Shown here one piece after another: positions 8,723 to 58,745 of a stretch of DNA of 64,000 nt (positions within the stretch are counted from its first letter, which is position 1; each line of letters opens with the position of its first letter). The position numbers and the translations under genes are program-made. Under the pieces are notes generated by a model. It was not told the DNA's origin and did no database searches. It saw only the letters and a list, made by a program, of their open reading frames with translations. The stretch lies in contig NW_024881506.1 of the NCBI RefSeq assembly GCF_019059575.1, forward strand, positions 1,054,001 through 1,118,000. The letters are read 5' to 3'. The DNA comes from Amphibalanus amphitrite (taxonomy: Eukaryota; Arthropoda; Thecostraca; Balanomorpha; Balanidae).

Positions 8723-10796
8723 CCTAAATCTAACCAAAACCAAGGCACTTGAAGTGTACCAAAATCAGAAAAACGCCGCTTGGTTCCGCTCGCAGAGGCG
8801 CCGCTTGGTTCCACCGACCGAGTCGGAAGGAACCACAATTTAGATGGCATTTAGCAACGCTGACTGCTGATGAAGAATGGGCGGCAGACGGGCAAACGCA
8901 CTGGGACTATCTGAGTCGAGCCCTAACCACCCCCGGTTTGCACCACAATCCACACTTCTTTCAGCTCGGTCTATTTCGCAATGGGTTGAACACGACCGGT
9001 AGGCCAGCTCTACTGACTTGGGTTGAGGGACTACTGACCCATTGTAACTCACCTCTTGGTAATTATTACTCTCAAGGCGGTCTTCGCCACGTTTGGGGAA
9101 GAAGTATCTCTCACTAGGGCCGGCGTTGGAAGTCAAAAAGCCCAGCACCATTGGGTGACTGCGGTGAAGGTTTCGTGCCACACCCGCCGGTGTTACGGGT
9201 GAATTGTCCGCTGAAACACCGTCCGACACGGGCACAAAGCCACACCAATGCCGGGCAGCAGACTCCCTGGGCGACTGCTATAGGTGAGTACTTGTTATGG
9301 CAGCCGGCCTCTGAGCGTCTGCTTTACGCTGCCGTGCGCCCCTTCCGGGATATGGGTCTGCGCGGCGGGGCTTTCCACGCCAAACACTGTCTGAGCCACG
9401 TGCACCGTACCAGCGCGGCATGAATGGCTCGTGAGCGTAACGGTCCGGCCAGGAAAGCCAGATTAGCATGGTCCGAAAACAGAAACGGCGATACCATCTA
9501 GCCATCGCCTTACATCCACTGCAAGCACGCGAGGAATGGCAGCTTCGACCTAAACTCGCAAATAAGAACGTCTTAAAGCTAGTTAGAGTCAAGACCAGGG
9601 AAGCTTCTTTCTCGGATGAACTGTTAGGAAGACACGATTTGGAACATTCTCAGACATTGTTTTCAGGATGGCACCCAGCCAGGCACAACTACACACGTGT
9701 AGAACAGTTATAAACCGTTAGAGGTTGCGACTCCGCGGCACCACAACATCCGCGCTGCAGTGGTAACCGTTTTATCGTTAATAACCGCTGTTCTTGCAGC
9801 GTCGCGATTTGCCCACACTTATCTATGGCCATCTGTCCCCTGCACCTGCCCTCGCGATCTTCCGTCGCCCTGGCCCTCGCGATCTCCCCCGCTCGACCGC
9901 CGCCCTGCAGGCAGTGCAGGCCGCCTCGTTAGCGGCAGTGTCCGAGTGGACCGCGGTGTGTGCAGCAGGCTCACCACTCGTCCGGCCGGCGTCTCAATAC
10001 GCTGCTCTCTTCAGGTGACGCGCGGCGCCGCCCACCGCGCGCCGATGACGGCCCGCCGAGAGGTCAACAATGCGCGCCCGGCACGCAGCGCTCCTCCCAG
10101 CTGATCAGCACCCGCTCCTCCCACCTGATCAGCACCGCCGGCCGGCCACCCGAACAATGCCGCGCCGGATCAGACCTGGCCGACAAATAGTGGCGCCGCT
10201 GGCGCGTCATCCCAGTGGGGCACTCGACAGGAAAACTCCGCCGAGGCACTCCGTCGAGGTACTCAGTAAGGGCATTGTTCGCCGGGGCACTCGGCAGGCA
10301 AACTCACCAGGCTCACTCCTGAGTACTCCGGTGCGGCACTCAGCCGAAGCACTCCGTTGACGCACCCGGTAGGGACCCTTCGAGGTCAGCAGATAGACTG
10401 GACCGGGGGGCGGGGGACAGGTGAATTTCCGATACTGGAAATTGATCAAGGTGCTATGGAATACGAAACGGGCCGTACAGGAGGGGCGATATGGAATAAA
10501 TCTATAACTATACCAAATAGGGTTCCAGCCGCGTTCTGCACTCGTCTTGCAGCGGCCGCTGTGCAAATGCAATTAGGCGGCGCGCGGGGCGGGAGCCGTA
10601 TTTCAGCGGCGGACTGACGGACTGGCTTCGTTACAGGTGTGGCCGCCGCCGGAATGCAGCGGGAGCGGCGGTGGACGCCGCACGGCGCCGGTCACACGGA
10701 GGCCGCTGATCGGTCCGATACAGGCGCCCGCCGGGGGCACCGGCTGACCGAGACCAGCGCGTCGGCTGCAGCGGTCCACCAGACAGAGGAGCCAGT
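8723..10796. other. Unassigned stretch, GC-rich from about 9830
   Basis: Frames of up to 131 codons occur on both strands, but none shows a recognisable domain and they overlap one another. Loose GGCACTC-type repeats are present at about 10210-10370. I cannot support a gene here. Confidence 0.4.
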
Positions 10797-10926
10797 GAGC
10801 CGGCCAGCTGCAGCTGTCCAGGACAGCCAGTGAGCCGGCCAGCTGCAGCTATCCAGGACAGCCAGTGAGCCGGCCAGCTGCAGCTGTCCAGGACAGCCAG
10901 TGAGCCGGCCAGCTGCAGCTGACAGG
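10797..10926. repeat. 35-bp minisatellite at the start of unit 1
   Basis: About four copies of a 35-bp unit containing GAGCCGGCCAGCTGCAGCTG. The array runs directly into palindrome P at CCAGTTCTTG. The same array opens unit 2 at 26925, so it marks the left boundary of the duplicated unit. Confidence 0.85.
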
Positions 10927-11464
10927 ACACCAGTTCTTGCATTTGGAATCCCTAATGCTCTCTGAATGATAAATGCGGTATCGCCACATAGCCGTGAGTA
11001 TTTGGCCGGCGTACCGGCGCCGTGGCATGCCATTGGCTCTGCTCAGCCACGGAATATCCAGCACAGCGGCGAGGCAATATTGGCGAATGACGTGGGCTGT
11101 GCGGTCAGGGGCGCACGATCATACTGCCGACCGAAACCACAGAAATGCTAATCCAGGGATATGATGCGATTGGGATCAGTGCTGCATGATTTGGCCAATC
11201 ACGGGCGCGTGCCACGTTGTGAAAATATATCCGGCAAAAATGAGCCCCGGTTCAACGGAGCCCTGGTTGAACCAGGCCACTTTGGAATAGAAAGTTAAAT
11301 TAGCGGAATTCAGCTGAAGTAAGCTGATCTAGCGACGCACAGTTCGAGTCCTGTTCTACTCCAAGCAGCCGGTTCGTGTAGACTCCTCCGTTGCGTGTCG
11401 TTTCCCAGATGACCGCCTATCTGGTACACCACTACACTGAGGTGACGGGCAGTGCTATTGTGTC
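10927..11464 (+). mobile_element. Palindrome P of unit 1, outer arm piece
   Basis: 538 bp nearly identical to 27295-27832 in unit 2. It ends at ATTGTGTC (11457-11464), where in unit 2 the sequence continues into the interior of P. Here it is cut exactly against the terminus of hAT-type element B. The missing interior lies inverted at 20355-24521. It contains a tRNA-like stretch (see 11268-11371). Confidence 0.9.
11268..11371 (+). other. tRNA-like relic inside P (four copies in window)
   Basis: The stretch has a 7-bp acceptor-like pair with one mismatch (GGAATAG with CTACTCC), a 5-bp CAGCT/AGCTG stem and a T-arm-like block containing a B-box match (AGTTCGAGTCC). The T stem looks one base short and loop sizes are off, so this is at best a decayed tRNA or tRNA-derived piece. 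Other copies lie near 20871-20974, 27635-27738 (plus) and 33015-33120 (minus). Confidence 0.3.
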
Positions 11465-12320
11465 CAAGGGCGGATCCAGCCGGCCGTCTTGGGGGGGGGG
11501 GGGCAACCCGTTGGGACTAGCCAAACCTAGGGTACCCCCAAATCTAGTTTTCTCACCGGTTTTAGGCCACTTATTTTTCACACTTCGCCTTTTCATCGAA
11601 AAAAAAAACGAAACGAAAACATTTGCAAAAAGTGAGATATTTTGTCTCAGCTGAGTCAAGGAACTACCTTTTTGGTAACGTAGAATAAAGGCTTAAATCT
11701 TCCACATGAGCTGTCAAGCCAGGTAAAGAGGGAGATTTTTTCTTAAATGTTTTCTTCCCTTTAGTTTTCCTTTGTGACCCACAACCGCTAATTCAGGGAG
11801 GGCAAGCTGCCCCGACGGTTCCTAGCCCTATGAAAAGTTGTAGGGCAGCGCCCCCACGGCCCCAGAGTTATGGGGGCAGGCTGCCCCCACTGACCCCCAG
11901 CTCCCGCGCCCATGACCACAAAGTTCAGGCCCATGGCCCGGCGTCGAGCTCAAATTCAGACTCGGCAATGTTGATGGTGTGTCCGAGTTCAGACAAGCTG
12001 AGCTTATGCTGGGTTCAGGCTTCAGCAGTCAGCTAGGACGGTTGAAGAGGTATCCTGTTGGGCTAAATGCCGGACAATCTCAAGCTCTAATTTTGCATTT
12101 AATGCTTAATTATCCTACTATGTTGAGTGAAAACTACCCATGTGTCAGTTTTCGAGTATAACTTCAAATAGTGGGTTTAGTTAGTGACATATGGTGGAGC
12201 ATTAGGGGTTTTAGGGGTGCACATGCACCCCCTAACTGAATAAAGCACCTTCTCAAAATGACGCTTGAAACACTTCAAAAACAAGTACAGGTAAGGGGAA
12301 ATTGTGTCTTCCTCTGTTCA

Positions 12321-13195
12321 CCCTCCCCCGTATAGGGGGAGGGGTCGAACAGACCCCACCCCCTCGGTTTTTCGCGAATAACTAGCGTAAAAACGGCTAA
12401 TCGCAACGGAACTTTCAGTACCCTCGAGTTAATCAATTTTGCATCTACCCTGAAATTTTAATTACCCTGACCCAAGTGACCTTTGACCTGTGACCTATTT
12501 CTCGCGACCATGTTTGGCCGGGATCGCGATTCGGCGTATGTTGGCTCGCATTAGCCGCGCGTTTGCAGTCTTTTCGTGGTTTCAAGCGTTCAAACATGTG
12601 ATATGATGTTGGTCCCATGCATTTGGATGGGTGTGAAGGTCACCTGAAGGTGAGGTCAGGTCATTGACCTTTGATGACCTCAGTTCACTTTTTCGAGTTT
12701 TACATGTTTCTAGGCTAGTTTTTGGAACTGAACTCGAATTCAGCAACCACTTGAACATTTACGAAGTACTTTTGGTGCCTTCGTAACATGTTACGAAGCT
12801 GTTAGAGGCGGTTGACACGTACTACGAATACCCGGCAGGACCACTACTGGTTGACCTGACCCGACCTGGCCTAAATGCATGAAGACATCTTCTGGGATCA
12901 ACACTAACACGATATTCGTGATCAGCACCCCGGAAAAGCTCAGCCACACTTACGACGCTCTAACAGGTCCCAATTTTCCCGACTTTTGGGTCATTGCCCT
13001 GACCTGGAAGGTCAACCATGAACCAATGACCTAAGACCTTAAATTGGGTATCATCGTCTTACTCTCGTCACGGGCATCACGCTCGTTTTTTTTTTCGCGA
13101 AGCTCTAGCTCGATCAGCGGCCAAACGGCAATGGGGGCAACGCCCCCCCCCCCCCTATACGTTCGCGGCTGACAAAACGCCAATACGGGCGAGGT
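12321..13195 (-). mobile_element. Family H element nested in B (unit 1)
   Basis: Reverse-oriented copy of the TTAA family complete at 47122-48018. One flank is TTAA (13196-13199); the other reads TTCA (12317-12320), a one-base change. It carries the subterminal motif at 12370-12450 and a CTTCGTAACATGTTACGAAG palindrome. Present in both units, so it inserted before the duplication. Confidence 0.82.
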
Positions 13196-13528
13196 TTAAA
13201 TCCATATACATTCAGGCATGAGACAAGAAAGCTCCTGTTTAATAGTGTTAATGAACTATGAAGAAGCTTCAGCTATTAAGAAGCTTCTGAAATCTCTCAA
13301 GCTGAAGTTGATTATACTCAGTGTTTTTATGATCATTCCTCAGTTTTCTGACAAGAATCACACATTTGGCCATGGCAAACGTTGAAAATACCTTTTTCTT
13401 TAAAAAAGTGCCCAATGACAATCTTATTTTCCAACAAATTTGCAATTAAAACCAACCAGTACACAATACAGAACACGTGCCTATGAATGCGAATAACAAT
13501 GTGATATCATGTCAATTTCTCCTACATG

Positions 13529-13560
13529 TTAACCTTCGCCGGCACAGGCCATTTTGACTC
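13529..13560 (+). repeat. TTAA-adjacent terminus shared with 48127
   Basis: TTAACCTTCGCCGGCACAGG matches TTAACCCTCGCCGGCACAGG at 48127 almost exactly, and both sit after a TTAA. It is probably one end of another TTAA element family; no partner end was found here. Confidence 0.45.
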
Positions 13561-13767
13561 TGGTTGGCAGAGTTTTTCACGTTTGCCCCAAGGTCACTCA
13601 ATCATCAAAGCAATATTTCACTTTCAGCATAGGAACTTTGAGAATGTTTATTTTTTAGTTTTCTTGACTTATGTCTTGGGGGGGGGGGCAAAAGATAGTA
13701 TGGCCCCCCTTTGACCGTCTTGGGGGGGCATGGCCCCGTTGGCCCCCCCCCCTTGGATCCGCCCTTG

Positions 13768-13900
13768 GTTATCACATTTCCACAGCCAGTCCGTGTGCCA
13801 GTGCGCAGTCGCGCCCGCGTGCTTGCTAGTGACCCCGCGACGTTAATCCCATCAAACTCCTAAGCTGTGCTCCCGGCTGTTGTCTGGTATTAAGTCTCCT
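13768..13900. other. Original unit DNA between elements B and F
   Basis: About 130 bp of unique sequence that also separates B and F in unit 2 (39671-39803). It starts with the GTTATCAC target duplication of B. Confidence 0.7.
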
Positions 13901-16900
13901 GGGCCCAATCTTATAAAGGTTGTGCTACCAAATGGCGTACTATCATTCCACCCCACTCTATTTACGGCACCCTATTCACGCAATCTTATAAAGAGAATAG
14001 CATGGTAATTCTATTCACGCCATTTTGCCCACAGTACAAATCAACGCCAGCAGGAAACACGCAACGTGATTGGTCAATGTCTTGTCGCCGTCGCTATTGG
14101 AAATTATGCGTACTGTTTGCGAACAGCAAAAGTTATGTGTTTTAATTTTTATTGGGCATTTATTTCTTTTAGAGACACACACATGTGTAATAAACAAATT
14201 ATTTATGGAAAACGTGATAGCAAAGTATGGAAAACACCAACATGCTTGAAGAATTCTCCTGAAAAGTGGATTGCCGACCAAATAAATTTCAGCGAGGGCA
14301 TTCTCGCGCTCAGAAAATCGAGTGAATAAAGTGTTTCTTCAACTTATCATTTGCATTTATTTGCTGTTAAGGCATTGCAATAGATTTGTTAAAGAATTAT
14401 TTAAATAATCATTTAATCATAGCTCGGCTACTCTTTCAGTAATTGAAGTAACGCCGTTGACAATGAAGCTCCTACAATTTGAGCATCAGGATACGTACAT
14501 TAGCTGGATCAATTCAAAATATAGCTTATTTTCCTTCTTGTCTTCATGAAGATAAAGCTACTAAAATTCGAAGATTACGTACATGAACTGAATTAGGTCA
14601 AGTTACAGCTTATTTTCCTTCCTATTCAAGCATAGGTACCTATTACCTAGCCTAAAGCTAAAGAGCAATTCCTCAAAAGATTTAAGTAACCAGTCTACAT
14701 ATCAAAGCTATATCAAGAAAAATACTTGGTTCAGAAGTCAGATCGAGATGCAGGAAGAGAAACAACAGATTGATCACTGATCAGTGACTGTGCCAAACAG
14801 AAAGTGAGGAAATACGAATAGTGAGGAGGCATTTATAATTTTTTGACAAACTAAGATATATCATCATTAATTTAAATATCTAATCAGAAGCCATGAAGTG
14901 CCCGTTATTTGTGTCATACGTGAGACGTGAGAATAGGCTAAAGACCCATACCGATTCTATAATGCAGTGGCTGCCAAAAATCTAAGACGGTTACTAATGC
15001 TAAAATCCTCTTAAAAATCCCCTTTTTATTTGAAAAATAAAGCCATATAACGATGAACACTCGTTTTTATGTGTTTTAGTGTGCATTTAGTTCCTGGAAA
15101 TACATATTTTGAAATTGATCGTTGTCTGTATAATTAAGCATCATTATAGTAAATTATGAGTTAATATGTGGAGGATGTTTTAATCTTAGAAATATCATAA
15201 TGTAAAATATTGCATACTTATATCATAAAAACATGGAATTTATCTTAAATCAATTAAACTGTCTGAGAAGCTCGTCAAAGTACGCCACAAATTCTGGCGT
15301 GAAATGGACGCCGCTGAAACCGCAAACAGCTGATGATTGTCGGTGTTTTGAGATGTGCACAGCTGCTCACGGTTAAAATCAGTTTACGGAATCCTCAAAA
15401 CCAGCGGCTACCAATACCGTAAAGAGCGTGCCGTGTTTTCGATTTCACAGAGTTTTATACAGTTTAATTGATTTAAGATAAATTCCATGTTTTTATGATA
15501 TAAGTATGCAATATTTTACATTATGATATTTCTAAGAAACATGCTCCACATATTAACTCATGATTTATTATAATGATGCTTAAATTATACAGACAACGAT
15601 CAATTTCAAAATATGTATTTCCAGGAACTAAATGCACACTAAAACACATAAAAACGAGTGTTCATCGTTATATGGCTTTATTTTTCAAATTAAAAGGGAT
15701 TTTTAAGAGGATTTTAGCACCAGTAACCGTTCTTAGATTTTCGGCAGCCACTGCATTATAGAATCGGTATGGGTCTTTAGCCTATTCTCACGTCTCACGT
15801 ATGACACAAATAACGGGCACTTCATTGCTTCTGATTAGATATTTAAATTAATGATGATAAACCTTAGTTTGTCAAAAATTTATAAATGCCTACTCACTAT
15901 TCGTATTTCCTCACTTTCTGTTTGGCACAGTTACTGATCAGTGATCAATCTGTTGTTTCTCCTCCTGCATCTCGATCTGACTTCTGAACCAAGTATTTTT
16001 CTTGATATAGCTTTGATATGTAGACTGGGTACTTCAATCTTTTGAGGAATTGCTTTTTAGCTTTAGGCTAGGTAATAGGTACCTATGCTTGAATAAGAAG
16101 GAAAATAAGCTGTAACTTGACCTAATTCAGTTCATGTACGTAGTCTTCGAATTTTAGTAGCTTTATCTTCAAGAAGGAAAATTTTAAGAGCTTATGACAA
16201 GAAGGAAAATAAGCTATATCTTGAATTGATTCAGTTAATGTACGTATCCTGATGCTCAAATTGTAGGAGCTTCATTGTCAACGGCATTACTTCAATTACT
16301 GAAAGAGTAGCCGAGCTATAATTAAATGATTATTTAAATAATTCTTTAACAAATTTATTGCAATGCCTTAACAGCAAATAAATGCAAATGATAAGTTGAA
16401 GAAACACTTTATTCACTCGATTTTCTGAGCGCGAGAATGCCCTCGCTGAAATTTATTTGGTCGGCAATCCACTTTTCAGGAGAATTCTTCAAGCATGTTT
16501 GTGTTTTCCATAGTTTGCTATCACGTTTTCCATAAATAACTTATTCATTACACATATGTGTGTCTCTAAAAGAAATAAATGCCCCATAAAAATCAAAACA
16601 CATAACTTTTGCTGTTCGCAAACAGTACGCATAATTTCCAATAGCGACGGCGACAAGACATTGACCAATCACGTTGCGTGTTTCCTGCTGGCGTTGATTT
16701 GTACTGTGGGCAAAATGGCGTGAATAGAATCTATATTACTATTTGAGGAGGGTGCGTCTGTCCGTTACCGAGGTCCCGACTTGGTGGTGCTTTGCGTGGA
16801 CTACAGGCCAGGCCGTTGCACCTAGCCCGGTGAAATTTGCACAACTTATAGATCAAGGATGCGCGACGTGCCTTTGAGGGGTCTCAGCTCGATCGGATTG

Positions 16901-17874
16901 ATAGGGAGCGCGTGGCGCGTGCTCAAAAAGTGCAAATTCGCGTCATAGACTTTACATGTATAAATCGGCGTGCGAAATCGGGCGAAAACGGCTAATTTTG
17001 GCCGACACGGGTCCAGTTCCCGTGCAATATCTTGGTGACCAGGGGTCCGACCGGCACGGGGAAAACAGCATCGTGTACAGAATTGAACGGGCTATTAAAT
17101 GGTGTGCAATGCAGAGGATAGCACGCGCCACGTGCACCGGAGAGGGCACTTTTATTTGAAAAATTGCGGTTTTTGAGGGATTTTGGAATTAATTTTATTT
17201 TTAGGTGACCGTTAAATGGAGCGAGTTGAATCAACGCCTATTTGCAAGAGAAAGGTACCGCCTCTCATATAAAAATTGTGAAAAGCTGATTGATCCAAAT
17301 CAAGGTGGTGCAAATCACAGGAGAAAATGGTGTTTGTCAATTTTGTGCCACTTTATTAATCACACGGGGTTTGCTGCATAACCTGATGCCTTTGGCAATT
17401 GAATATGGTACCATTGGATAGAGCATTCAATTCTGTCCAATATTCACTCTTCATTTTTGTATGATGAGCAACAGTATTCTTAAAAATGTAAATGTTCCAA
17501 ACCATTACATTGTCATTTTTAGCGAAATTCATCGATGGCCCCCAAAAGATTTCACGCCAGTTTTCGAATCATTCTAAAGTAGAACGCATGATAATACGAC
17601 ACGGGCACCTCGATACGATGTATCCTTTTGTTTTCTTACAAAATGCTTGGCCGTCAAAAAGCAATCGAACGAAATGGATATCTACCAACCAAATCGACAC
17701 AGACCAACCCAATACCCACGGGTCAAAAAATCCCCCCTTCGCGTTGCGGAGCACGCGGGTAACCCTAGTTACCATACTATTCTCTTTAAGATTGCGTGAA
17801 TAGGGTGCCGTAAATAGAGTGGGGTGGAATGATAGTACGCCATTTGGTAGCACAACCTTTATAAGATTGGGCCC
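13901..17874. mobile_element. Large palindromic element F, unit 1 copy
   Basis: Ends are inverted GGGCCCAATCTTATAAAGG, and the inverted arms, about 1.36 kb each, flank a central spacer of about 215 bp (15260-15475). Removing the nested Helitron leaves 2935 bp, the same net length as the unit 2 copy. The flanks fit a 5-bp CCTGG or 3-bp CTG duplication; the palindromic ends make this ambiguous, so the superfamily is open. There is no transposase frame. F was in place before the unit was duplicated. Confidence 0.82.
16730..17768 (+). mobile_element. Non-autonomous Helitron, copy 1 (nested in F)
   Basis: 1039 bp starting TCTATATTACTATTTG and ending ACCCTAG. A hairpin CGCGT/ACGCG (17740-17757) sits about 7 bp before the terminal CTAG. 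It lies between A and T, and the same site in unit 2 (around 36210) is empty and reads GAATAGAATTACCAT, showing precise insertion into an AT dinucleotide without duplication. No Rep/helicase frame is present, so it depends on an autonomous partner. A second copy of identical length is at 62870. Confidence 0.95.
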
Positions 17875-18664
17875 TGGTGTCCCACGGCAGTCATTCTAAC
17901 CAAACATTAGCCAAACATTGTCATTTGTCTAACATTCTTACTTAACATTATTGCTCTCGGATACTTAATGAAATAATTTTTATATATTTTTGTCCAGCTG
18001 ATCAAGACAAAGCAATATTTGTCGAAATATATGGACTTGTATGCTATTAATTTTCATCCCAGTGAATTCCGATAAATACTTATCATCTACTATCGCATAC
18101 TTGTCCTGGGAGCAGGTATTCGTTAACACATACAGTGCTCATCTTTATGCAGTTTATTTTCCAACGACTTTGGAAAAACGCTGTGTGAACGCGAACGATC
18201 GCGAGTTCACTCAACAGAACGATTGCCACACGACTGTCGCAGCAGAACTATGAAAACACGCTGTGAACGGTTGCCGATTGCGGGGACAAGGTACAGTCCA
18301 CAGCAGAAGTAATGTGTGGTTTCAGTCATGGGTATGTTCTGCTTCTGAAGCTTAGGAACGATTAGCCAGACTACAATGGAACTTTTAATGTAGCTTATAT
18401 GTATCGTCACCCTTGCAGCTGCAACTTTAGCTATTGACATCAATTCTTTTCGATCACTCCGCATTAAACAATCGCCAGTCAAAGCCAACTGTTGAGATCG
18501 GTAAAACCCTACATTACTTTAGCGGTGGGCTGTACACCTCATAACTGACAGAACGATTGCCATACGACTGTCGCAGCAGAACTTGAAAAAAAACGCTGTG
18601 AACGGTTGACAATTGCGGGGGCACCCCTCACAACAGAGCGATTACCACACGGCTGTCCGTGAAA
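17875..18664. repeat. Downstream flank of the recombinase gene with direct repeats
   Basis: Contains two ~76-bp direct repeats (18214-18290 and 18549-18624) sharing CGACTGTCGCAGCAGAAC and CGCTGTGAACGGTTG, and a partial third at 18632-18657. They are preserved in unit 2 (35324-35400 and 35680-35765). They could be terminal or regulatory repeats of the recombinase-bearing element; this is inference. Confidence 0.6.
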
Positions 18665-19972
18665 CTACCGCCTGCGCGACCGTCCTCCCCTCTCATCAGC
18701 ATACCGGTCCCACCGCCCCTTCTCACGAGCACTCTGTAGCATTGCCCTAAGTTTGTTCTCGACGCACTTAAGTGATCGTAAGTCAAACAAAGGGCTGTTC
18801 CTTGACATCATAGTAAGTGCCAGCCTGCTAGACACAAACGTACCATCACTGATCATCTTGCGCACTTGCTTCTCCAAGACTGCCACTTCTTCTGAGCTGA
18901 AGGCCACAGCAGCTGGACGAGGCTCAGATTCTTCGGTGTCTGTCGTCTCATCACAGCCATACAGCACCTGCTTCATCTTTTGCACCGTTTTGGTCGCCTC
19001 CGCCCGCCTGTTTTTTGCTGAATAGGCGCGGAACTGCGTAGCCGACCTGTGTGTCATGTGGTCCGCCAGTTTACGGCGCTCGCTGTCCGTCAGGTCGTCA
19101 TACGCGGCGGTGGAGGCAGCCTTCCTGATCATCGTAGGCGTCAGCTTAAAGTCTACCTGGAATCCACGGCAGACTTCGGCGATGTCGTCCGCCGGGTCCG
19201 ATGAGGGGAACAGCAGGTCCACCTTATCTTCTGTTACCAGGAACGACCTGAAGTGTTCGACGTACACCTCGAGATGTTTCACCAGACCGCGAACGACCAA
19301 GTTCGCGGATCCGTACGTTGCGTTACTCTTGTGGTCCTTCACTCGCAGAACTTCGTTCTTCATTTTAGCATACTCGTCCAGTCTTGCATTTTTGATAACC
19401 CCAGACCTCTGGAAGTTCTGAAGGAGGATCGCAGAAGTTAGAAGCCGTCTCATCTTTACGGCGTCCGTCCGCCGAATGTCGGAAGCCACCGCGCACATCT
19501 TTGGGAGCTCGGCTTCAACTAGTTTCCGTAGCTCATTCAGCTGTTCTCGGGTGGGCAGGTAACCGTCTTCTCCGAGTTTATCTTGGAGTTGCGCCTCTCT
19601 ATGTAGGTCCAGAGACGATGCATCGCGCTTCCAAGTCTGTAAGCGCCGTCGGGCGGCATCCCACTGCACAGCGTGCTCTGGCTCACGTACGCTGGCGAAC
19701 CTTTCGAATTCCAAAAGGGCGATAACTGCCGATTTCACCGAAGCAGTTTGTGTGGCCCTCTGACCGACCAGGGCCTTCTGACCGACCAGGACCCTCTGAT
19801 CGACCGGGTTCGGGGCCCTCTGGCGGACCAGGGCCCTCTGACCGACCAGGGCCCTCTGACGGACAAGGGCCAGGGCCATCTGGCCGACCAGGACCCTCTG
19901 GCCGACCAAGGCCTTCTGAGCTCTGACCGACCAGGGTCCTCTGTGCTTTGGCCGACCAGGACCCTCTGACAT
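18665..19972 (-). CDS. Tyrosine recombinase (Crypton-like), unit 1 copy
   Basis: The 435-residue frame is a probable site-specific DNA recombinase of a Crypton-like mobile element. Residues 1-75 are built from an 18-bp minisatellite and are low-complexity (VGQRAL-type repeats). A tyrosine-recombinase catalytic domain follows at about 165-320: Arg189 in 'NFQRSGVIKN', Lys215 in 'VKDHKS', Arg283 in 'TPTMIRKA', His308 in 'HMTHRS' and the candidate nucleophile Tyr317. The nine-residue His-Tyr spacing matches the lambda Int and Cre family. The usual His three residues before the second Arg is Thr here. A C-terminal module (about 358-412) resembles the small DNA-binding-like domain that follows such recombinases in other animals. 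The start codon is uncertain because the frame begins inside the minisatellite; a real N-terminus may lie in upstream exons. Both copies are open. Confidence 0.75.
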   Translation of the reverse strand: MSEGPGRPKHRGPWSVRAQKALVGQRVLVGQMALALVRQRALVGQRALVRQRAPNPVDQRVLVGQKALVGQRATQTASVKSAVIALLEFERFASVREPEHAVQWDAARRRLQTWKRDASSLDLHREAQLQDKLGEDGYLPTREQLNELRKLVEAELPKMCAVASDIRRTDAVKMRRLLTSAILLQNFQRSGVIKNARLDEYAKMKNEVLRVKDHKSNATYGSANLVVRGLVKHLEVYVEHFRSFLVTEDKVDLLFPSSDPADDIAEVCRGFQVDFKLTPTMIRKAASTAAYDDLTDSERRKLADHMTHRSATQFRAYSAKNRRAEATKTVQKMKQVLYGCDETTDTEESEPRPAAVAFSSEEVAVLEKQVRKMISDGTFVSSRLALTMMSRNSPLFDLRSLKCVENKLRAMLQSAREKGRWDRYADERGGRSRRR

Positions 19973-20105
19973 AGCAGGGCACTCTGATTGACCAGGGCCA
20001 TCTGGTCAACCAGGGCCCTCTGACTAACCAGGGCCCTCTGGCCGACCAAGGCCCTCTGACTGAAAAGGGCCCTCTAGCCGACCAGGGCCCTCTAGCTGAG
20101 CACTG
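19745..20105. repeat. 18-bp minisatellite at the recombinase 5' end
   Basis: Imperfect copies of an 18-bp unit (CTCTGACCGACCAGGGCC) run from within the coding frame into its upstream flank. Since 18 is a multiple of three, copy-number changes keep the frame open. Unit 2 has one unit fewer inside the frame, giving a six-residue shorter protein. Confidence 0.88.
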
Positions 20106-20354
20106 ATCAGGGCCCTCCGACCGAGAAGTGGTCTCCGATCGAATTCAGGTGCATAAATTGGCCATTAGGTACCTCTTGCCTCCAAATGCACGTTCCTGCA
20201 TTTTTTTAAAGGGCCCGGCTGGCAGCTGGGGGGGGGGGCAGCTGCCCCCCCCCTGTGGCGCCGGCCCTGCCCCTGTTCCGGGCCTATTCCTGCCATGGAG
20301 GGAACTCTTGCCAGAGGTGCTGCTAGGCCATGAGCACAGATGGCCTGGCCTTGG
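20106..20354. other. G/C snapback between minisatellite and P
   Basis: Non-coding; contains GCTGGCAGCTGGG followed by a long G run and then C run (about 20216-20252), able to fold on itself. Also present in unit 2. Confidence 0.5.
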
Positions 20355-20667
20355 AGTTCTTGAGGCCGGCTACATGTCTGTCTCTGCATGACACACAACC
20401 GTACGCAGAAAACTTTTCCCAGAGTCTATGCACAGTGTTCTGCATTCCCTCATAAGTGTATGTACAGGCATATCTTTCTAGTTGAGGTTTATTTGCCATT
20501 GGGTCTACAGTGCAGGGAGGCTGGCGCCGCAACCAGTTCTTGCATTTGGAATCCCTAATGCTCTCTGAATGATAAATGCGGTATCGCCACATAGCCGTGA
20601 GTATTTGGCCGGCGTACCGGCGCCGTGGCATGCCATTGGCTCTGCTCAGCCACGGAATATCCAGCAC
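20323..20667 (-). CDS. Outward-facing hypothetical frame in P (unit 1)
   Basis: A 114-codon frame with no recognised domain lies 350 bp upstream of the recombinase and on the same strand. Its C-terminal half has several Cys and His ('YGCVSCRDRH'). Copies are open at 33322-33666 and within 26939-27430. It could be a lost or upstream exon of the recombinase, or a chance frame in GC-rich DNA kept open only because the copies are recent. Confidence 0.2.
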   Translation of the reverse strand: MLDIPWLSRANGMPRRRYAGQILTAMWRYRIYHSESIRDSKCKNWLRRQPPCTVDPMANKPQLERYACTYTYEGMQNTVHRLWEKFSAYGCVSCRDRHVAGLKNSKARPSVLMA

Positions 20668-23600
20668 AGCGGCGAGGCAATATTGGCGAATGACGTGGGC
20701 TGTGCGGTCAGGGGCGCACGATCATACTGCCGACCGAAACCACAGAAATGCTAATCCAGGGATATGATGCGATTGGGATCAGTGCTGCATGATTTGGCCA
20801 ATCACGGGCGCGTGCCACGTTGTGAAAATATATCCGGCAAAAATGAGCCCCGGTTCAACGGAGCCCTGGTTGAACCAGGCCACTTTGGAATAGAAAGTTA
20901 AATTAGCGGAATTCAGCTGAAGTAAGCTGATCTAGCGACGCACAGTTCGAGTCCTGTTCTACTCCAAGCAGCCGGTTCGTGTAGACTCCTCCGTTGCGTG
21001 TCGTTTCCCAGATGACCGCCTATCTGGTACACCACTACACTGAGGTGACGGGCAGTGCTATTGTGTCGGCGATGACCAGCCGCTCTTCCCGAGATGACTG
21101 GTGCGAGCGCGTCGGGTAGCTGTTTTCTGGCCATTAACACATAACCGGCATACCACACGGCGGTAGATGATGGGGCTAGCGGAAAATCCAGCGCGCGGCA
21201 CGGGTCCACAGCACGATGGGTGGGACGGGGTGGGGCAGGTCGGGACAGCATTGTTTTGGGTAGACTGCGACTGGACGCATTTACCCGCGCCCAGGTGGGG
21301 GGGGGGGATTTTTTGCCCCCCCCCTCTAGACTTTTCGATATATCTCCAGAACCGCTGCGCCGATCGTCACCAAACTTTCAGTACCCTCCCGGGCATCAAT
21401 TTTACACATTGTGACCAATTTTTTTCCAACGGCCATGATAGGTTATCCGCAAATGACGTCAGAGTGACGTCATGTTCTGCCGTTTTCGCCCCCCCCCCCC
21501 AAAAAAAAAGGTTTCGCGGGAAGAGCTTTCAGGCCTATAGCTTTGAAGATACAGAAAAACGTTCTCGACATAAAAAATGTAGAATTATTAGGGCTACAAA
21601 ACTGCTATCTCGCAATTTTGAATTTTGAAAGAAAGCGCGGTTTTAAGGCTCATGATTAATGATTATATAGATAAATGCAATGAAAACCCTAAGCCTCATG
21701 CTAATAATTGTATTCAAAATAGGGCCAAGAAAATGAGATTTCTTTTCTCAAATCTCATTTTCTTGGCCCTATTTTGAATACAATTATTAGCATGAGGCTT
21801 AGGGTTTTCATTGAATTTTGAATTTGTCGAATTTTGACCCCCCCCCCTAAAAAAATGAATATAATTGCCGACAAATCCAAAAAGTTTTTCGATTTTCGAA
21901 AACCGAATATATGTGATAGTCCCTACCAATTTCTATTCACATATCAAATTTTAGATCGATAACTCTTTTTTTGCCAAGTTATAGCGAAAAATCTGTTCAA
22001 AATCAATGACGTTTAATTTTTAAACTCAATTTTTAGCGATTCTAGACCACGTAGCGCAAAACAAAGGCCACCATTAGACTCGCCGTGACGAGCTGCATCG
22101 ATTTGATACCCATTTTATGCAAAAATATCAACTTTAAAATTTGACCTTTTTTGACCTGACATTGACCTGACCTCCACCAGGAAGTGACCTAAACCGTTCC
22201 TGATGTTCTTATAACCAACACCATTGAGTTTGAAATGAAAAATTGGCCATAAAACATGCATCACACAGCCCTAGTGAAATTGGGTTAATGTGCTGACCCT
22301 TCAGGTGACCTGACCTGTGACCTGACCTGGTATTATCAGTGACCTCTAATAGCGACGTATGTACTAAGCAACTGACACCCTATCGCTGATTTTCGATAAA
22401 ATGCGCTTTACTCGATGTTGTAGGCTGTAGCGCATTCCCTAGAAGACCCGTGAACGGCAAAACATTTTATCTTTGACCTGACCTGTGACGTCATCGGTGA
22501 CCCTGAGGTCAATGAAATTGAAGTTCCTCCGACAAATTTGACAGGGCTTCCGAACGCCGTTTGAATTTTTCGGACCCGTTCAGTAGTTTCGGAGATACGG
22601 GGGGGGCAAAAATAGCCCCCCCCCCCCCACCAGGTCGCGGCCCGGACGGGGGATTCCGGTTGAAGCGCAGTCACGTGACCTGCGATATCTCGGTGCGCTC
22701 TAAGCGGAAGGGGTGTGCCCTTATAGGTTCGCGTATTTTCCAGTCAAAATATACATATTCGTAATGCTTTTTCAATTCTCTGTCCATCGACGATTGAAAT
22801 TATTTGCAATCGTTACGACACAAATAAATAGGCTCAAAAGTTAACGAACCTATAAGGGCACACCCCTTCCGCTTAGAGCGCACCGAGATATCGCAGGTCA
22901 CGTGACTGCGCTTCAACCGGAATCCCCCGTCCGGGCCGCGACCTGGTGGGGGGGGGGGGGCTATTTTTGCCCCCCCCCCCCCGTATCTCCGAAACTACTG
23001 AACGGGTCCGAAAAATTCAAACGGCGTTCGGAAGCCCTGTCAAATTTGTCGGAGGAACTTCAATTTCATTGACCTCAGGGTCACCGATGACGTCACAGGT
23101 CAGGTCAAAGATAAAATGTTTTGCCGTTCACGGGTCTTCTAGGGAATGCGCTACAGCCTACAACATCGAGTAAAGCGCATTTTATCGAAAATCAGCGATA
23201 GGGCGTCAGTTGCTTAGTACATACGTCGCTATTAGAGGTCACTGATAATACCAGGTCAGGTCACAGGTCAGGTCACCTGAAGGGTCAGCACATTAACCCA
23301 ATTTCACTAGGGCTGTGTGATGCATGTTTTATGGCCAATTTTTCATTTCAAACTCAATGGTGTTGGTTATAAGAACATCAGGAACGGTTTAGGTCACTTC
23401 CTGGTGGAGGTCAGGTCAATGTCAGGTCAAAAAAGGTCAAATTTTAAAGTTGATATTTTTGCATAAAATGGGTATCAAATCGATGCAGCTCGTCACGGCG
23501 AGTCTAATGGTGGCCTTTGTTTTGCGCTACGTGGTCTAGAATCGCTAAAAATTGAGTTTAAAAATTAAACGTCATTGATTTTGAACAGATTTTTCGCTAT

Positions 23601-24521
23601 AACTTGGCAAAAAAAGAGTTATCGATCTAAAATTTGATATGTGAATAGAAATTGGTAGGGACTATCACATATATTCGGTTTTCGAAAATCGAAAAACTTT
23701 TTGGATTTGTCGGCAATTATATTCATTTTTTTAGGGGGGGGGGGTCAAAATTCGACAAATTCAAAATTCAATGAAAACCCTAAGCCTCATGCTAATAATT
23801 GTATTCAAAATAGGGCCAAGAAAATGAGATTTGAGAAAAGAAATCTCATTTTCTTGGCCCTATTTTGAATACAATTATTAGCATGAGGCTTAGGGTTTTC
23901 ATTGCATTTATCTATATAATCATTAATCATGAGCCTTAAAACCGCGCTTTCTTTCAAAATTCAAAATTGCGAGATAGCAGTTTTGTAGCCCTAATAATTC
24001 TACATTTTTTATGTCGAGAACGTTTTTCTGTATCTTCAAAGCTATAGGCCTGAAAGCTCTTCCCGCGAAACCTTTTTTTTTGGGGGGGGGCGAAAACGGC
24101 AGAACATGACGTCACTCTGACGTCATTTGCGGATAACCTATCATGGCCGTTGGAAAAAAATTGGTCACAATGTGTAAAATTGATGCCCGGGAGGGTACTG
24201 AAAGTTTGGTGACGATCGGCGCAGCGGTTCTGGAGATATATCGAAAAGTCTAGAGGGGGGGGGGGGGGCAAAAAATCCCCCCCCACCTGGGCGCGGGTAA
24301 ATGCGTCCAGTCGCAGTCTACCCAAAACAATGCTGTCCCGACCTGCCCCACCCCGTCCCACCCATCGTGCTGTGGACCCGTGCCGCGCGCTGGATTTTCC
24401 GCTAGCCCCATCATCTACCGCCGTGTGGTATGCCGGTTATGTGTTAATGGCCAGAAAACAGCTACCCGACGCGCTCGCACCAGTCATCTCGGGAAGAGCG
24501 GCTGGTCATCGCCGACACAAT
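20355..24521. mobile_element. Palindrome P of unit 1, main part
   Basis: The right arm (20355-22731), a 113-bp central spacer (22732-22844) and the inner left arm (22845-24521) form a near-perfect palindrome of about 4.2 kb. The remaining outer arm piece is at 10927-11464, separated by the inversion. The right end, GACACAAT (24514-24521), is the reverse complement of the ATTGTGTC that ends the other piece. The spacer is in the opposite orientation to unit 2, which independently supports inversion of this whole block. Each arm contains a perfect 64-bp hairpin, a G/C homopolymer snapback and GGTCA clusters. Confidence 0.88.
21678..21813. repeat. Perfect 64-bp-stem hairpin in P
   Basis: Arms 21678-21741 and 21750-21813 are exact reverse complements around an 8-nt loop. 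Equivalent hairpins lie near 23776-23911, 28437-28572 (one mismatch) and 32182-32317. RNA across this would form a long double-stranded stem. Confidence 0.9.
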
Positions 24522-25074
24522 CAGTGGCGGATCCTGGGGGGGGTCCACGGGGTCATGACCCCCCCCAAAAGGTCTGAGAGGGTCATTTGACCCCCCCCAA
24601 AAGCCGAAGACCTAAATGCGCTATAGACGCCGTCTTGCATGCTCAAAATCACATGTCAAACACTTCTGAGCTAATACCTTTGTTTTTCTGGATCGTGTTG
24701 CGTGAAAAGGCGTATTGAAGGCCAGAATCTTACTCATTTTTGTCTCAACCGTGCGAGCACCAGGGGATGATCCAGGAAAACTCCAAGGGGATGGTCATGA
24801 ATTTAATTCGTGGTGCCCCTACCTATACGCAAAATTAAAAACTCAACGGATTTCGGCCACTTAATTTTGGTGATGTCCTATTTCCATTTTTTTATTTTGT
24901 TTGTTTTATTTTTAGTGCCCCTGGGCCCTGGCAGGTCAAAATCACGTCGGAGGCGAAAGAAATTCACGGGAATCCCAAAAATCACGTCAGGACATTCAGG
25001 GCACTCTGACCAGCCTGACAGCTAGGGCCCTTCTTACTTCCTGGGGCCTCCAGTGAATAACCGCTAGTGTCTGT

Positions 25075-25445
25075 GTCGGCCCCTCTGACTCCTCAGTAGG
25101 TAGGAGGCCCTCTGTAGAGGAGACCCTCTGTGGAAAGGAGACCGCCTGAATGCAGAAGGCCCTCTGAAGAGAGGAGACCCGCTGTAGAGAGAAGGCCCTC
25201 TGAAGAAAGGAGGCTCTCTGTAGAGAAGAGGCCCTCTGAAGAGAGGAAGCCCTTTGCAGAGATGAGGTCCTCTGGCTCTTTGAAGAGAGGAGGTCCTCTG
25301 TAAAGGAGGCCCTCTGAAAGGGAGAGACCCTCAGTAGAGAGGAAGCCCTCTGTAGAGAGGAAGCCTTCTGTAGTTAAGAGGCCCTGTGAAAAGAGGAGGC
25401 CCGCAGTAGAGATCGGTGGTCCTCTGTAGAGAGGAGACCCCCTCT
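25075..25445. repeat. Minisatellite in E (about 18-20 bp)
   Basis: Degenerate repeats of GAGGCCCTCTGAAGAGAG-type units, roughly eighteen copies. Non-coding. Confidence 0.8.
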
Positions 25446-25448
25446 GTG

Positions 25449-25930
25449 TTTTGACAAATGTTTTTGCAAATTTTTCGCGGCGCTTCGCGCCGCCGATTCA
25501 TGTACATACGTACAGGTCAATATGAAATCGTGACTGTAATTACATAAACCAACCGTGTCAAATTGAATCAGAATTCATATGTGTACTGTGAAGAAACTCC
25601 GGCTTGTACTGCCATGCTAAAAGGGTGGTAAAATTTGTGTTTTGGAGCGGAGCTGTGTTTTGACACATTCTTTTGCAAATGTTCTCGGCGCTTCGCGCCG
25701 CCGATTTATACACCAATCAATAAGAGAGATCGTGACTGTAATAACACCAACCGTGTCAAATTGAATCGGAATTCATATGTGCACTGTGAAGGAACTCCGG
25801 CTTGTACTAGCATGCTAAAAGGGTTGTAATATTTGTGTTTTAGAGCTGTGTTTTGACAACTTTTTTCAAATTTTTGCGGCGCTTCGCGCCGCCGATTCAT
25901 ACACAGGTCAATAAGAGAGATCGTGACTGT
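25449..25930. repeat. About 200-bp tandem repeat in E
   Basis: Three copies start near 25449, 25652 and 25850 (the last partial). Each begins TGTTTTGACA and contains the hairpin CGGCGCTTCGCGCCG. Non-coding. Confidence 0.85.
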
Positions 25931-26394
25931 ATGCTACTAATGCATTGGGCATTAGACTAATGCATAAGTGAGGTAACTATATCTACTACTTCTGGGTTTT
26001 TAAGTCGGTCGATCCGCCCCCCCCCCCCCAGTAAAAAAATCCGTGGCGACGCTCCTCTATAGGTGGGTTTCACTAACTAAAACTACTGAGCCGAGTGACT
26101 TACGATAAAACTTCAACTCAGAAACGACGAAGATCAAATGTCATTGGATCTCGACATACTCGCTCCCTACCCCCCCCCCCCCCCCGGTCGTCAGAATTCA
26201 TTCATCAGACCTGGCATGTCGGCCGACTGGTGACCCCCCCCAAAACGTTCCCCTAGATCCGCCCTTGAACATATGTACACTACGCGATCGGGCACAGCTC
26301 GTCACTACAGGCCGCTCGACGGCCGGTGACTTAGCGCCGACAGCTGGGGACTGTGTGTGGGGGGGGGGCGGCCCCCGGCCCCCGCACTCCGCCC

Positions 26395-26790
26395 GGCCAA
26401 CTCGGGAGTGTGGGACGGCCACTCTGCGCGGCCAACTCGGGAGTGTGGCACGGCCACTCTGCGCGGCCAACTCGGGAGTGTGGCACGGCCACTCTGCGCG
26501 GCCACAACTCGGGAGTGTGGGACGATTACTCCGCGCGGCCAACTTAGGAGTGTGGGACGGCCACTCTGCGCGGCCAACTCGGGAATGTGGGACGGCCATA
26601 TGCGCGGCCAACTCGGGAGTGTGGGACGGCCACTCTGCGCGGCAAACTCAGGAGTGTGAGAGGAGTGGCCGTCCCCGCACTCCGCCCGGCAAACTCGGGA
26701 GAGTTCACACTTCACACTCCACCCAGCTAACTCGAGAGCTCACACTCCGCCCGGCCAACTCGGGAGTGTGGTCGGAGTGGCTAGTCTCAT
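26395..26790. repeat. 35-bp minisatellite between the units
   Basis: About eight to ten copies of a 35-bp unit containing GGCCAACTCGGGAGTGTGG, degrading towards the right. It shares its period, but not its sequence, with the arrays at 10797 and 26925. Confidence 0.85.
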
Positions 26791-26924
26791 CCACCTGCAC
26801 CTGGTCGCACTGCGTGGGTAACTACTAACTCCAACGGACCGTTCTCAGTTCAGAGCGAAGGATAAGTCTACGCCAATATTTTCTTTTGTCGTAGATCATA
26901 GAAAAACTTAGGGCTTCCTGCATG

Positions 26925-27115
26925 TCCAGGACAGCCAGTCAGCCGGCCAGCTGCAGCTGTCCAGGACAGCCGGTGAGCCGGCCAGCTGCAGCTGTCCAGG
27001 ACAGCCGGTGAGCCGGCCAGCTGCAGCTGTCCAGGACAGCCAGTGAGCCGGCCAGCTGCAGCTGTCCAGGACAGCCGGTCAGCGGGCCAGCTGCAGCTGT
27101 CCAGCACAGCCCCAG
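26925..27115. repeat. 35-bp minisatellite at the start of unit 2
   Basis: About five copies of the same unit as at 10797, running into P at CCAGTTCTTG. Its left flank is unrelated to that of the unit 1 array, so the duplication boundary lies at or in the array. Confidence 0.88.
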
Positions 27116-29821
27116 CCAGTTCTTGAGGCCGGCTACATGTCTGTCTCTGCATGACACACAACCGTACGCAGAAAACTTTTCCCAGAGTCTATGCACAGTG
27201 TTCTGCATTCCCTCATAAGTGTATGTACAGGCATATCTTTCTAGTTGAGGTTTATTTGCCATTGGGTCTACAGTGCAGGGAGGCTGGCGCCGCAACCAGT
27301 TCTTGCATTTGGAATCCCTAATGCTCTCTGAATGATAAATGCGGTATCGCCACATAGCCGTGAGTATTTGGCCGGCGTACCGGCGCCGTGGCATGCCATT
27401 GGCTCTGCTCAGCCACGGAATATCCAGCACAGCGGCGAGGCAATATTGGCGAATGACGTGGGCTGTGCGGTCAGGGGCGCACGATCATACTGCCGACCGA
27501 AACCACAGAAATGCTAATCCAGGGATATGATGCGATTGGGATCAGTGCTGCATGATTTGGCCAATCACGGGCGCGTGCCACGTTGTGAAAATATATCCGG
27601 CAAAAATGAGCCCCGGTTCAACGGAGCCCTGGTTGAACCAGGCCACTTTGGAATAGAAAGTTAAATTAGTGGAATTCAGCTGAAGTAAGCTGATCTAGCG
27701 ACGCACAGTTCGAGTCCTGTTCTACTCCAAGCAGCCGGTTCGTGTAGACTCCTCCGTTGCGTGTCGTTTCCCAGATGACCGCCTATCTGGTACACCACTA
27801 CACTGAGGTGACGGGCAGTGCTATTGTGTCGGCGATGACCAGCCGCTCTTCCCGAGATGACTGGTGCGAGCGCGTCGGGTAGCTGTTTTCTGGCCATTAA
27901 CACATAACCGGCATACCACACGGCGGTAGATGATGGGGCTAGCGGAAAATCCAGCGCGCGGCACGGGTCCACAGCACGATGGGTGGGACGGGGTGGGGCA
28001 GGTCGGGACAGCATTGTTTTGGGTAGACTGCGACTGGACGCATTTACCCGCGCCCAGGTGGGGGGGGGGATTTTTTGCCCCCCCCTCTAGACTTTTCGAT
28101 ATATCTCCAGAACCGCTGCGCCGATCGTCACCAAACTTTCAGTACCCTCCCGGGCATCAATTTTACACATTGTGACCAATTTTTTTCCAACGGCCATGAT
28201 AGGTTATCCGCAAATGACGTCAGAGTGACGTCATGTTCTGCCGTTTTCGCCCCCCCCCCAAAAAAAAAAGGTTTCGCGGGAAGAGCTTTCAGGCCTATAG
28301 CTTTGAAGATACAGAAAAACGTTCTCGACATAAAAAATGTAGAATTATTAGGGCTACAAAACTGCTATCTCGCAATTTTGAATTTTGAAAGAAAGCGCGG
28401 TTTTAAGGCTCATGATTAATGATTATATAGATAAATGCAATGAAAACCCTAAGCCTCATGCTAATAATTGTATTCAAAATAGGGCCAAGAAAATGAGATT
28501 TCTTTTCTCAAATCTCATTTTCTTGACCCTATTTTGAATACAATTATTAGCATGAGGCTTAGGGTTTTCATTGAATTTTGAATTTGTCGAATTTTGACCC
28601 CCCCCCCCTAAAAAAATGAATATAATTGCCGACAAATCCAAAAAGTTTTTCGATTTTCGAAAACCGAATATATGTGATAGTCCCTACCAATTTCTATTCA
28701 CATATCAAATTTTAGATCGATAACTCTTTTTTTGCCAAGTTATAGCGAAAAATCTGTTCAAAATCAATGACGTTTAATTTTTAAACTCAATTTTTAGCGA
28801 TTCTAGACCACGTAGCGCAAAACAAAGGCCACCATTAGACTCGCCGTGACGAGCTGCATCGATTTGATACCCATTTTATGCAAAAATATCAACTTTAAAA
28901 TTTGACCTTTTTTGACCTGACATTGACCTGACCTCCACCAGGAAGTGACCTAAACCGTTCCTGATGTTCTTATAACCAACACCATTGAGTTTGAAATGAA
29001 AAATTGGCCATAAAACATGCATCACACAGCCCTAGTGAAATTGGGTTAATGTGCTGACCCTTCAGGTGACCTGACCTGTGACCTGACCTGGTATTATCAG
29101 TGACCTCTAATAGCGACGTATGTACACTCGGGGGCAGATTGATGTTCCACAACTCTTTATCCACCGGGTTCCTATGGCTCAGCATTGGCAGCAGCCGCCT
29201 GGTACCGGTAGACTGTGCCGCTTCACTTACTTGTCAAGCGGCACAGCCTACCCACACCGTATGCCACCGGTCTGGGTCGGTGGCTGGAAGGCGATGTGGG
29301 CCGCCTGTGACGTCAGCGCAGCGGCGAGGGCCGAGCCCGGAGGCATGGCTCGGGTCGGCGCGGCGCGGCGGCTGGCGAGGGCTGGGGAGTGAGGTGGGGT
29401 GGGAGCACGGACCATCGCGCGGCTGAGCGAGTGTAGTTAGCTTTCGCGTCTCAAGGCGCCAATTATTCTACCCAACAATTGTGCTAAAGCAGAACTTAAA
29501 ATGTCCTATCCCCAAGACAGCGCCTATCATCATACTTGCCATGCACATTACGGCACACTTAAACGTGGCATTGGGACAGCCGATAGAATTTATATCACAC
29601 GTGCATCGAGGTGCGGAGCTACATTTTTTTTTTTTTTAACAGATGAGTATTAAGGCCTTGATTGAGCTCATTGATGTCTATTATTTCGCACAGCTATCGT
29701 CCAGAGACGTGGGAACTGGGGTTTTTGGATAGCGCGGCGTCCCAACTTTAAGCAACTCTTACTGTTCCTCTAATGTGTGGTCGCAGCCACCAATAGCAAA
29801 CCGTTCCATCTAGGAACAAAT

Positions 29822-29907
29822 AAGTCACGCACCCGGGACGGTTCGAACCGGGTTTCTCCAACCGGTCACCCTACGACGTTAGCGTGTATCCACTGAGCTG
29901 CCGAAAC
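29822..29907 (-). ncRNA. tRNA-like sequence in D, left
   Basis: On the minus strand it carries an A-box-like GCAGCTCAGTGG and a B-box GGTTCGAACC at tRNA-like spacing. Stems do not pair fully, so it is a tRNA-derived (SINE-like) relic rather than a working tRNA. It is divergent from the one at 30008. Confidence 0.45.
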
Positions 29908-30007
29908 CAGCGACCACCCGCCGCGGTCAAACGCGATCAAATGTCACAATACTGTCGTTGGCGGTCAGCGGGTGAATGTAGTTTTGTTTTGTGCAGACGA
30001 GGACCAT

Positions 30008-30090
30008 TCTCGGTAGCTCAGTGGATGAACGCTCGTGTCGTGAATTGGCCGGTGGGAGAAGCCCGGTTCGAACCCCCCTGAGTGGCCGAC
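30008..30090 (+). ncRNA. tRNA-like sequence in D, right
   Basis: A-box-like GTAGCTCAGTGG and B-box GGTTCGAACC, with a 5-bp CTCGG/CTGAG acceptor-like pairing but a poor T stem. It is roughly 75% similar to its inverted partner at 29822. It could serve as a Pol III promoter. Confidence 0.45.
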
Positions 30091-33321: not shown

Positions 33322-33666
33322 GTGCTGGATATTCCGTGGCTGAGCAGAGCCAATGGCATGCCACGGCGCCGGTACGCCGACCAAATACTCACGGCTATGT
33401 GGCGATACCGCATTTATCATTCAGAGAGCATTAGGGATTCCAAATGCAAGAACTGGTTGCGGCGCCAGCCTCCCTGCACTGTAGACCCAATGGCAAATAA
33501 ACCTCAACTAGAAAGATATGCCTGTACATACACTTATGAGGGAATGCAGAACACTGTGCATAGACTCTGGGAAAAGTTTTCTGCGTACGGTTGTGTGTCA
33601 TGCAGAGACAGACATGTAGCCGGCCTCAAGAACTCCAAGGCCAGGCCATCTGTGCTCATGGCCTAG
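33322..33666 (+). CDS. Outward-facing hypothetical frame in P (unit 2)
   Basis: 114 codons, nearly identical to the unit 1 frame at 20323-20667, on the same strand as the recombinase 355 bp downstream. No domain recognised; see the unit 1 entry for doubts. Confidence 0.2.
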   Translation: MLDIPWLSRANGMPRRRYADQILTAMWRYRIYHSESIRDSKCKNWLRRQPPCTVDPMANKPQLERYACTYTYEGMQNTVHRLWEKFSAYGCVSCRDRHVAGLKNSKARPSVLMA

Positions 33667-33884
33667 CAGCACCTCTGGCAAGAGTTCCCTCCATGGCAGG
33701 AATAGGCCCGGAACAGGGGCAGGGCCGGCGCCACAGGGGGGGGGGGCAGCTGCCCCCCCCCCCCCAGCTGCCAGCCGGGCCCTTTAAAAAAATGCAGGAA
33801 CGTGCATTTGGAGGCAAGAGGTACCTAATGGCCAATTTATGCACCTGAATTCGATCGGAGACCACTTCTCGGTCGGAGGGCCCT

Positions 33885-42101: not shown

Positions 42102-42109
42102 GTGATAAC

Positions 42110-58742: not shown

Positions 58743-58745
58743 GTC

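Follow-up and report, generated by a model that had tools for sequence, protein, structure and literature searches.

In maize, the p1-p2 inversions that arise from the element Ac and a fractured Ac (fAc) carry 8-bp repeats at both junctions, placed exactly at the element termini (PMC8225341). The two elements are directly oriented and it is their facing ends that are used; one element lies inside the inversion and the other just outside it, and the DNA between them is lost (PMC8225341). A locus of the barnacle Amphibalanus amphitrite shows the same kind of junctions and the same placement of two elements, and there too the DNA between the elements was probably lost and facing ends were probably used; it lies in a stretch of 64,000 nucleotides (C9:1054001-1118000, called the window below, which is without N; the assembly has 807.55 Mb in 2,644 contigs). 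In this window one of two nearly identical units, unit 1, is inverted over 13 kb relative to unit 2, and the breakpoints coincide with the termini of two transposons of hAT type, B and E. The maize inversions were recovered by phenotype and involve Ac and fractured Ac (PMC8225341), whereas the barnacle event is natural and would involve the ends of two different, related hAT elements.

Several other systems share part of this pattern. In hybrid element insertion by the Drosophila P element the ends of two copies also act together, and inversions are among the outcomes (PMC2775673, PMC3744419). The P element, however, belongs to another superfamily than the barnacle hAT elements. In hybrid element insertion the ends lie on sister chromatids or homologues, an arrangement that would give the same product in the barnacle. 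Alternative transposition into the sister chromatid has been described in maize, together with three small natural duplications beside hAT elements (PMC3744419). The reaction there is the same and has a possible parallel in a copy of E on contig C499, discussed at the end of this text, but the product in the window is an inversion instead of a duplication and the C499 case is unproven. The Galileo inversions of Drosophila buzzatii are natural and have a DNA transposon at each breakpoint, as does the barnacle locus, but they show exchanged duplications and chimeric elements, hence recombination (PMC2775673). The breakpoints of inversion 2Rj of Anopheles gambiae resemble those described here in a putative 8-bp duplication in inverse orientation, but carry 14.6-kb repeats in place of hAT ends; its authors discuss alternative transposition and leave the mechanism undecided (PMC1952172). 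For a hAT case in an aphid two origins have been suggested, one of them alternative transposition (PMC7202869). The other literature found dealt with alternative transposition in maize and rice and with Drosophila inversions formed by recombination. In all of this literature, in which subscription papers were mostly not covered, we found no animal in which a natural inversion by reversed-ends transposition was documented in full. In maize the reaction is established, from selected alleles.

The split target site and the inverted segment

Over three aligned blocks with 10,697 bases in total, unit 1 is separated from unit 2 by 13 substitutions; two smaller blocks with one substitution each lie outside this sum. 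Both units contain a palindrome, P, and a copy of B. The features of the window that matter here are as follows, with the basis of each in brackets.

10929-11464, plus strand: left P piece of unit 1, still in place (window self-comparison, junction reading).
11457-11464, plus strand: first target copy, ATTGTGTC, adjoining B (junction reading).
11465-24521, minus strand: inverted segment, 13,057 bp (alignment to unit 2, junction reading).
11465-13767, minus strand: hAT element B of unit 1, 2,303 bp, inverted; its outer end at 11465 is the putative mobilised end (alignment, copy comparison).
13768-13775, plus strand: GTTATCAC, original 8-bp duplication of B, inner side only (flank reading).
20355-24521, minus strand: remainder of the P of unit 1, inside the inverted segment (window self-comparison).
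24514-24521, minus strand: second target copy, GACACAAT, inverted, adjoining E (junction reading).
24522-26267, plus strand: hAT element E, 1,746 bp; its left end is the putative mobilised end (genome copy comparison).
26268-26309, plus strand: original right flank of E, with AACATATG and the last 42 bp of a long terminal repeat (LTR), the other part of which is absent (LTR copy comparison).
27820-27834, plus strand: intact target of unit 2, left arm of P (window self-comparison).
32918-32932, minus strand: intact target of unit 2, right arm of P (window self-comparison).
39804-42101, plus strand: hAT element B of unit 2, 2,298 bp, with GTGATAAC at 39796-39803 and 42102-42109 (flank reading, copy comparison).
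42102-43689, plus strand: outer neighbour of B, retained by unit 2 but not by unit 1; it belongs to a putative lost stretch, X (window and genome comparison).

Both junctions were read directly. On the left, ATTGTGTC at 11457-11464 is followed by B, which starts with CAAGGGCGGATCC at 11465; on the right, GACACAAT at 24514-24521 is followed by E, which starts with CAGTGGCGGATCC at 24522. GACACAAT is the reverse complement of ATTGTGTC, and the target is thus present twice, in inverted orientation. An earlier, sequence-only reading of this DNA had proposed that a P site was split in unit 1, with its halves at the outer end of B and the left end of E, and that an 8-bp target was duplicated in inverted orientation with one copy beside each of the two hAT element ends. 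The junctions confirm the split, contain both members of the ATTGTGTC/GACACAAT pair that was to be looked for, and bear out the inverted duplication. The intact site, GCTATTGTGTCGGCG, is found in three other P arm copies of the window, at 21057 (+), 27820 (+) and 32918 (-). The 536 bp to the left of B (10929-11464) are P arm, 100% identical to 20532-21067 and 99.8% identical to 27295-27830. This match ends where the first base of B begins, the right P piece ends where the first base of E begins, and the overlap between the two P pieces of unit 1 is exactly 8 bp. The octamer or its complement occurs eight times in the window (five are copies of one P site and three are not), with a chance expectation of about two by simple arithmetic. 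A chance match is implausible, given an overlap of exactly 8 bp and two cuts, each precisely where a hAT terminus begins. The five genome matches of GCTATTGTGTCGGCG outside the window showed no P homology in their 3-kb loci.

The inverted segment aligns to unit 2 in the reversed direction, 11464-15076 with 42102-38495, 15078-16743 with 37861-36197, 17769-23221 with 36209-30773 and 23217-24521 with 29125-27823. Its P part also aligns forward (20355-22364 with 27118-29125) because P is a palindrome. When the inversion is undone, the order of unit 1 becomes that of unit 2 (tandem repeat, P, the rest, B), and B and E are oriented alike, the two used ends turned towards each other. As the locus now stands, B (11465-13767) is inside the inversion and E (24522-26267) just outside its other end. 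The 13-kb inversion relative to unit 2 that had been claimed earlier is therefore upheld, while the extent given for it, 11457 to 24522, has to be corrected to 11465-24521.

The two units have further features of their own. The tandem repeat to the left of P, at about 10765-10939 in unit 1, matches 26950-27125 in unit 2. The left P piece of unit 1 is without some 180 bp between two copies of CCAGTTCTTG, which in unit 2 start at 27116 and 27296, and a 1.65-kb stretch with 87% inverted arms at the centre of P in unit 2 (29125-30773) is absent from unit 1. An insertion of 1,039 bp is present in unit 1 only (16730-17768); it starts with TC, ends with CTAG, lies between A and T without a target duplication, and has a 97.4% identical copy at 62870-63908. 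We take it to resemble a non-autonomous Helitron. Both units carry a large repeat (33638-43689 in unit 2), with about 20 other long matches reaching to its end; the aligned copies, at loci L010-L041, end near 43689, and in several of them a core piece of P (about 31045-31259) is found 1-3 kb before the position that corresponds to 33638. An open frame of the unit (33991-35310) matches a 96% identical protein recorded from A. amphitrite.

Flanks and ends of the two hAT elements

B and E are complete hAT elements, different but related; their short terminal inverted repeats and the 8 bp duplicated at their targets are those of this class. In unit 1 the flanks of B are ATTGTGTC on the outer and GTTATCAC on the inner side, while in unit 2 GTGATAAC is present on both sides. 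It can thus be read directly, as had been claimed, that B keeps its old flank on the inner side only in unit 1 and on both sides in unit 2. The two B copies differ from each other by 1 substitution and 7 gap bases. Among 40 genome copies scored out of 11,377 candidates, eight others extend over positions 1-2298 of B and one over 5-2298, with identities of 94-97%. Among these nine, the 8-bp duplication is perfect in seven and has one mismatch in an eighth. The last copy shows 7 mismatches by script, and by eye a perfect GACAGGGG on both sides when a 1-bp deletion in the terminal repeat is allowed. The DNA around B belongs to a repeat family, and the B-empty site with a single GTGATAAC was found at 9 of 19 loci examined (L010-L028), six of them near-identical; the remaining loci were scored neither as empty nor as filled. 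In the window comparison the outer neighbour of B, 42102-43689, was not found beside unit 1.

The copies of E are more uniform. Of 2,220 candidates 40 were scored, and besides the window copy 38 extend over positions 1-1746 and one over 1-1744. The E family has moved recently, since these copies are 99-100% identical. Flanks were fetched for the 39 other copies, of which 38 could be scored (the one on C1019 has a damaged right end), and the 8-bp target duplication is perfect in 37 of the 38. The flanks of E in the window are mismatched, the left one being GACACAAT and the right one AACATATG; the sequence-only reading had made no use of the latter. The right flank (26268-26309) has 38 other short matches of 98-100% identity, including seven same-strand pairs about 5.05 kb apart; it is read as LTR because the two members of a fetched pair are identical for 538 bp and diverge thereafter. 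In all five LTR copies that were fetched AACATATG is uninterrupted, which represents the E-empty site. The part of the LTR expected to the left of E was matched neither in the window nor in the 10 kb that adjoin it on each side. Since the neighbour of B and this LTR part are absent where they would be expected, each element has lost its neighbour on the side that touches P and kept the other.

Some additional observations on E may be recorded. An E-like sequence in locus L036 was set aside as a diverged relative, since its right end is degraded and its left part differs. At C365:251788-255285 one E is inserted in another E, with the duplication GTCAAACA. A genome-wide list of E left ends, restricted to those with a flanking octamer that starts with a base other than G, has 70 entries. 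E may be carried inside another repeat, because the flank ATGAATAA is common to 10 of these 70. To the right of the LTR piece beside E, 26310-26923 has one other long genome match, at L042:3206-3590, which lies 33 kb upstream on the same contig; it is 91-93% identical in two main blocks and contains no LTR, tandem repeat or P.

The ends of the two elements were compared beyond the 13-bp terminal repeat. The inner end of B and the left end of E give a score of 71 (shuffle mean 23.8), which none of 500 shuffles reached. Other pairs are weak, their score being reached by 152 of 500 shuffles (B outer with E left), 122 (B inner with E right), 86 (B outer with B inner) and 14 (E left with E right). 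With whole 80-bp ends, terminal repeat included, the outer end of B scores 48 with E right and 27 with E left. The ends used would thus be the left end of E and a right-type end of B, the latter by exclusion, because the inner end of B is of the E-left type. Elsewhere in the window, 58728-60830 is an open frame of 700 codons in which a hAT dimerisation domain scores above the cut-off, and for which a 96% identical protein exists; no terminus of B or E type was found around it within 57501-62500.

Probable reversed-ends transposition and alternative explanations

We think it likely that the inversion arose by reversed-ends (alternative) transposition with the ends of two different, related hAT elements. 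The sequence-only reading had arrived at this explanation, and it gains support from the inverted 8-bp duplication at both termini and from the loss of flanks on the used sides only. Unit 1 would have started as tandem repeat, P, middle and B, followed by the stretch X and then by E, which pointed the same way as B; X presumably formed one stretch between them. A transposase would have paired the outer end of B with the left end of E, which faced each other across X and probably lay on one chromatid. Both ends would have been cut off X and inserted jointly into ATTGTGTC in the left arm of P, with the usual 8-bp stagger. At the target the B end would have been attached on the left and the E end on the right, so that the 13 kb between target and B would be flipped, the 8 bp duplicated in inverted orientation and X lost. 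Two other events were considered and rejected. A simple insertion of E does not account for a right flank of AACATATG in place of GACACAAT, and a composite transposon carrying 11465-24521 would give a direct, not an inverted, duplication.

Several points weigh against this explanation. The ancestral junction of X with E had 0 matches in the assembly, and the junctions of the inversion are seen in assembly sequence alone. Beyond the tandem repeat, the DNA to the left of unit 1 does not match that to the left of unit 2. The outer end of B and the right end of E have no significant subterminal match (131 of 500 shuffles reach their score). The same product is given by the same chemistry in trans, with the B end and the E end on different chromatids or homologues, as in hybrid element insertion or sister-chromatid transposition. 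This trans version, which we regard as unlikely, would let the second unit come from the same single event; ends at separate sites yield an inversion together with a deletion or duplication (PMC2775673), and units 1 and 2 are nearly identical, as the substitution count given above shows. However, if E had been to the left of a single unit on the sister chromatid, then E and its flank would be expected to the left of unit 1, where they are absent. The mismatch of the left flanks of the two units also speaks against it, although non-allelic partners are conceivable. A further explanation, that the junctions or the order of the two units result from misjoined haplotypes or repeats, draws on the composition of the region, which combines a pair of long, nearly identical inverted copies with minisatellites and a palindrome, and on the appearance of other loci on two contigs (C499 and C304). 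We consider such an assembly artefact very improbable. A misjoin would not coincide exactly with the termini of two transposons and an 8-bp duplication, and the window is without N. That units 1 and 2 are two haplotypes placed end to end is less likely because alleles of a related barnacle differ by several per cent, far more than the two units do (PMC8270832); even if they were haplotypes, the junctions must be real in one of them.

Recombination between the elements does not fit the junctions. Non-allelic homologous recombination between two inverted hAT copies is the route of the Galileo inversions in Drosophila (PMC2775673), and hAT copies are indeed present at both breakpoints. But B and E are different elements, and exchanged duplications and chimeric elements are predicted where both elements are whole. 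The far flank of E is AACATATG and not the GTTATCAC/GTGATAAC of B, the other E copies match the window copy end to end, and B of unit 1 is almost unchanged from B of unit 2. A second copy of B at 24,522, with the B duplication on its far side, would support recombination, and there is none. We give this explanation almost no chance. Two unrelated events, in which E inserts into P, a deletion reaches the right end of E and a separate break joins P to B, would make GACACAAT beside E an ordinary target site. This sequence of events requires extra breaks exactly at the right end of E within the LTR and at the first base of the outer end of B, and the break between P and B would have to meet the same P octamer by chance; moreover, the right flank of E is an intact LTR target site. 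It seems to us extremely improbable.

A possible second product and the meaning of the inversion

The only one of the 38 scorable other copies of E that is without a target duplication is at C499:420476-422220. The sequences compared (loci L102, L103, L122, L123, L147 and L148) are as follows.

C499:417476-425220: E with the DNA on both sides.
C304:400937-402936 and 404100-404300: the corresponding locus.

Immediately on each side of this E is a copy of one 1,441-bp sequence; the two copies are identical and directly oriented, and form a perfect tandem duplication with E at its junction. Contig C304, which is without E, is identical to C499 over 1,758 bp on the near and 601 bp on the far side; with about 1 kb of its middle unread, its coordinates are those expected for a single copy. 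In maize, alternative transposition has been described to yield small tandem duplications next to hAT elements (PMC3744419). The second copy does not end in an excision scar, as C304 shows native sequence there. The base beside the left end of E is C, where the native site has T. The case is weaker than the inversion in the window and is unproven; another repair origin is possible, because the end of the second copy is native and the base beside the left end of E differs. That the hAT group of B and E repeatedly remodels the genome through joint ends of different elements, with the inversion in the window as one product and C499 maybe as a second, is a tentative idea that we consider rather doubtful. 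If it is true, two different hAT families would cooperate in one synapsis.

The inversion itself suggests a joint use of ends from two different hAT elements. A single assembly contains the empty site of each element, the target in its intact form and a sister copy that is not inverted, which allows the reaction to be read without a screen. E is young and has many copies, and the rate of such rearrangements in the barnacle genome could therefore be counted from flanks alone.

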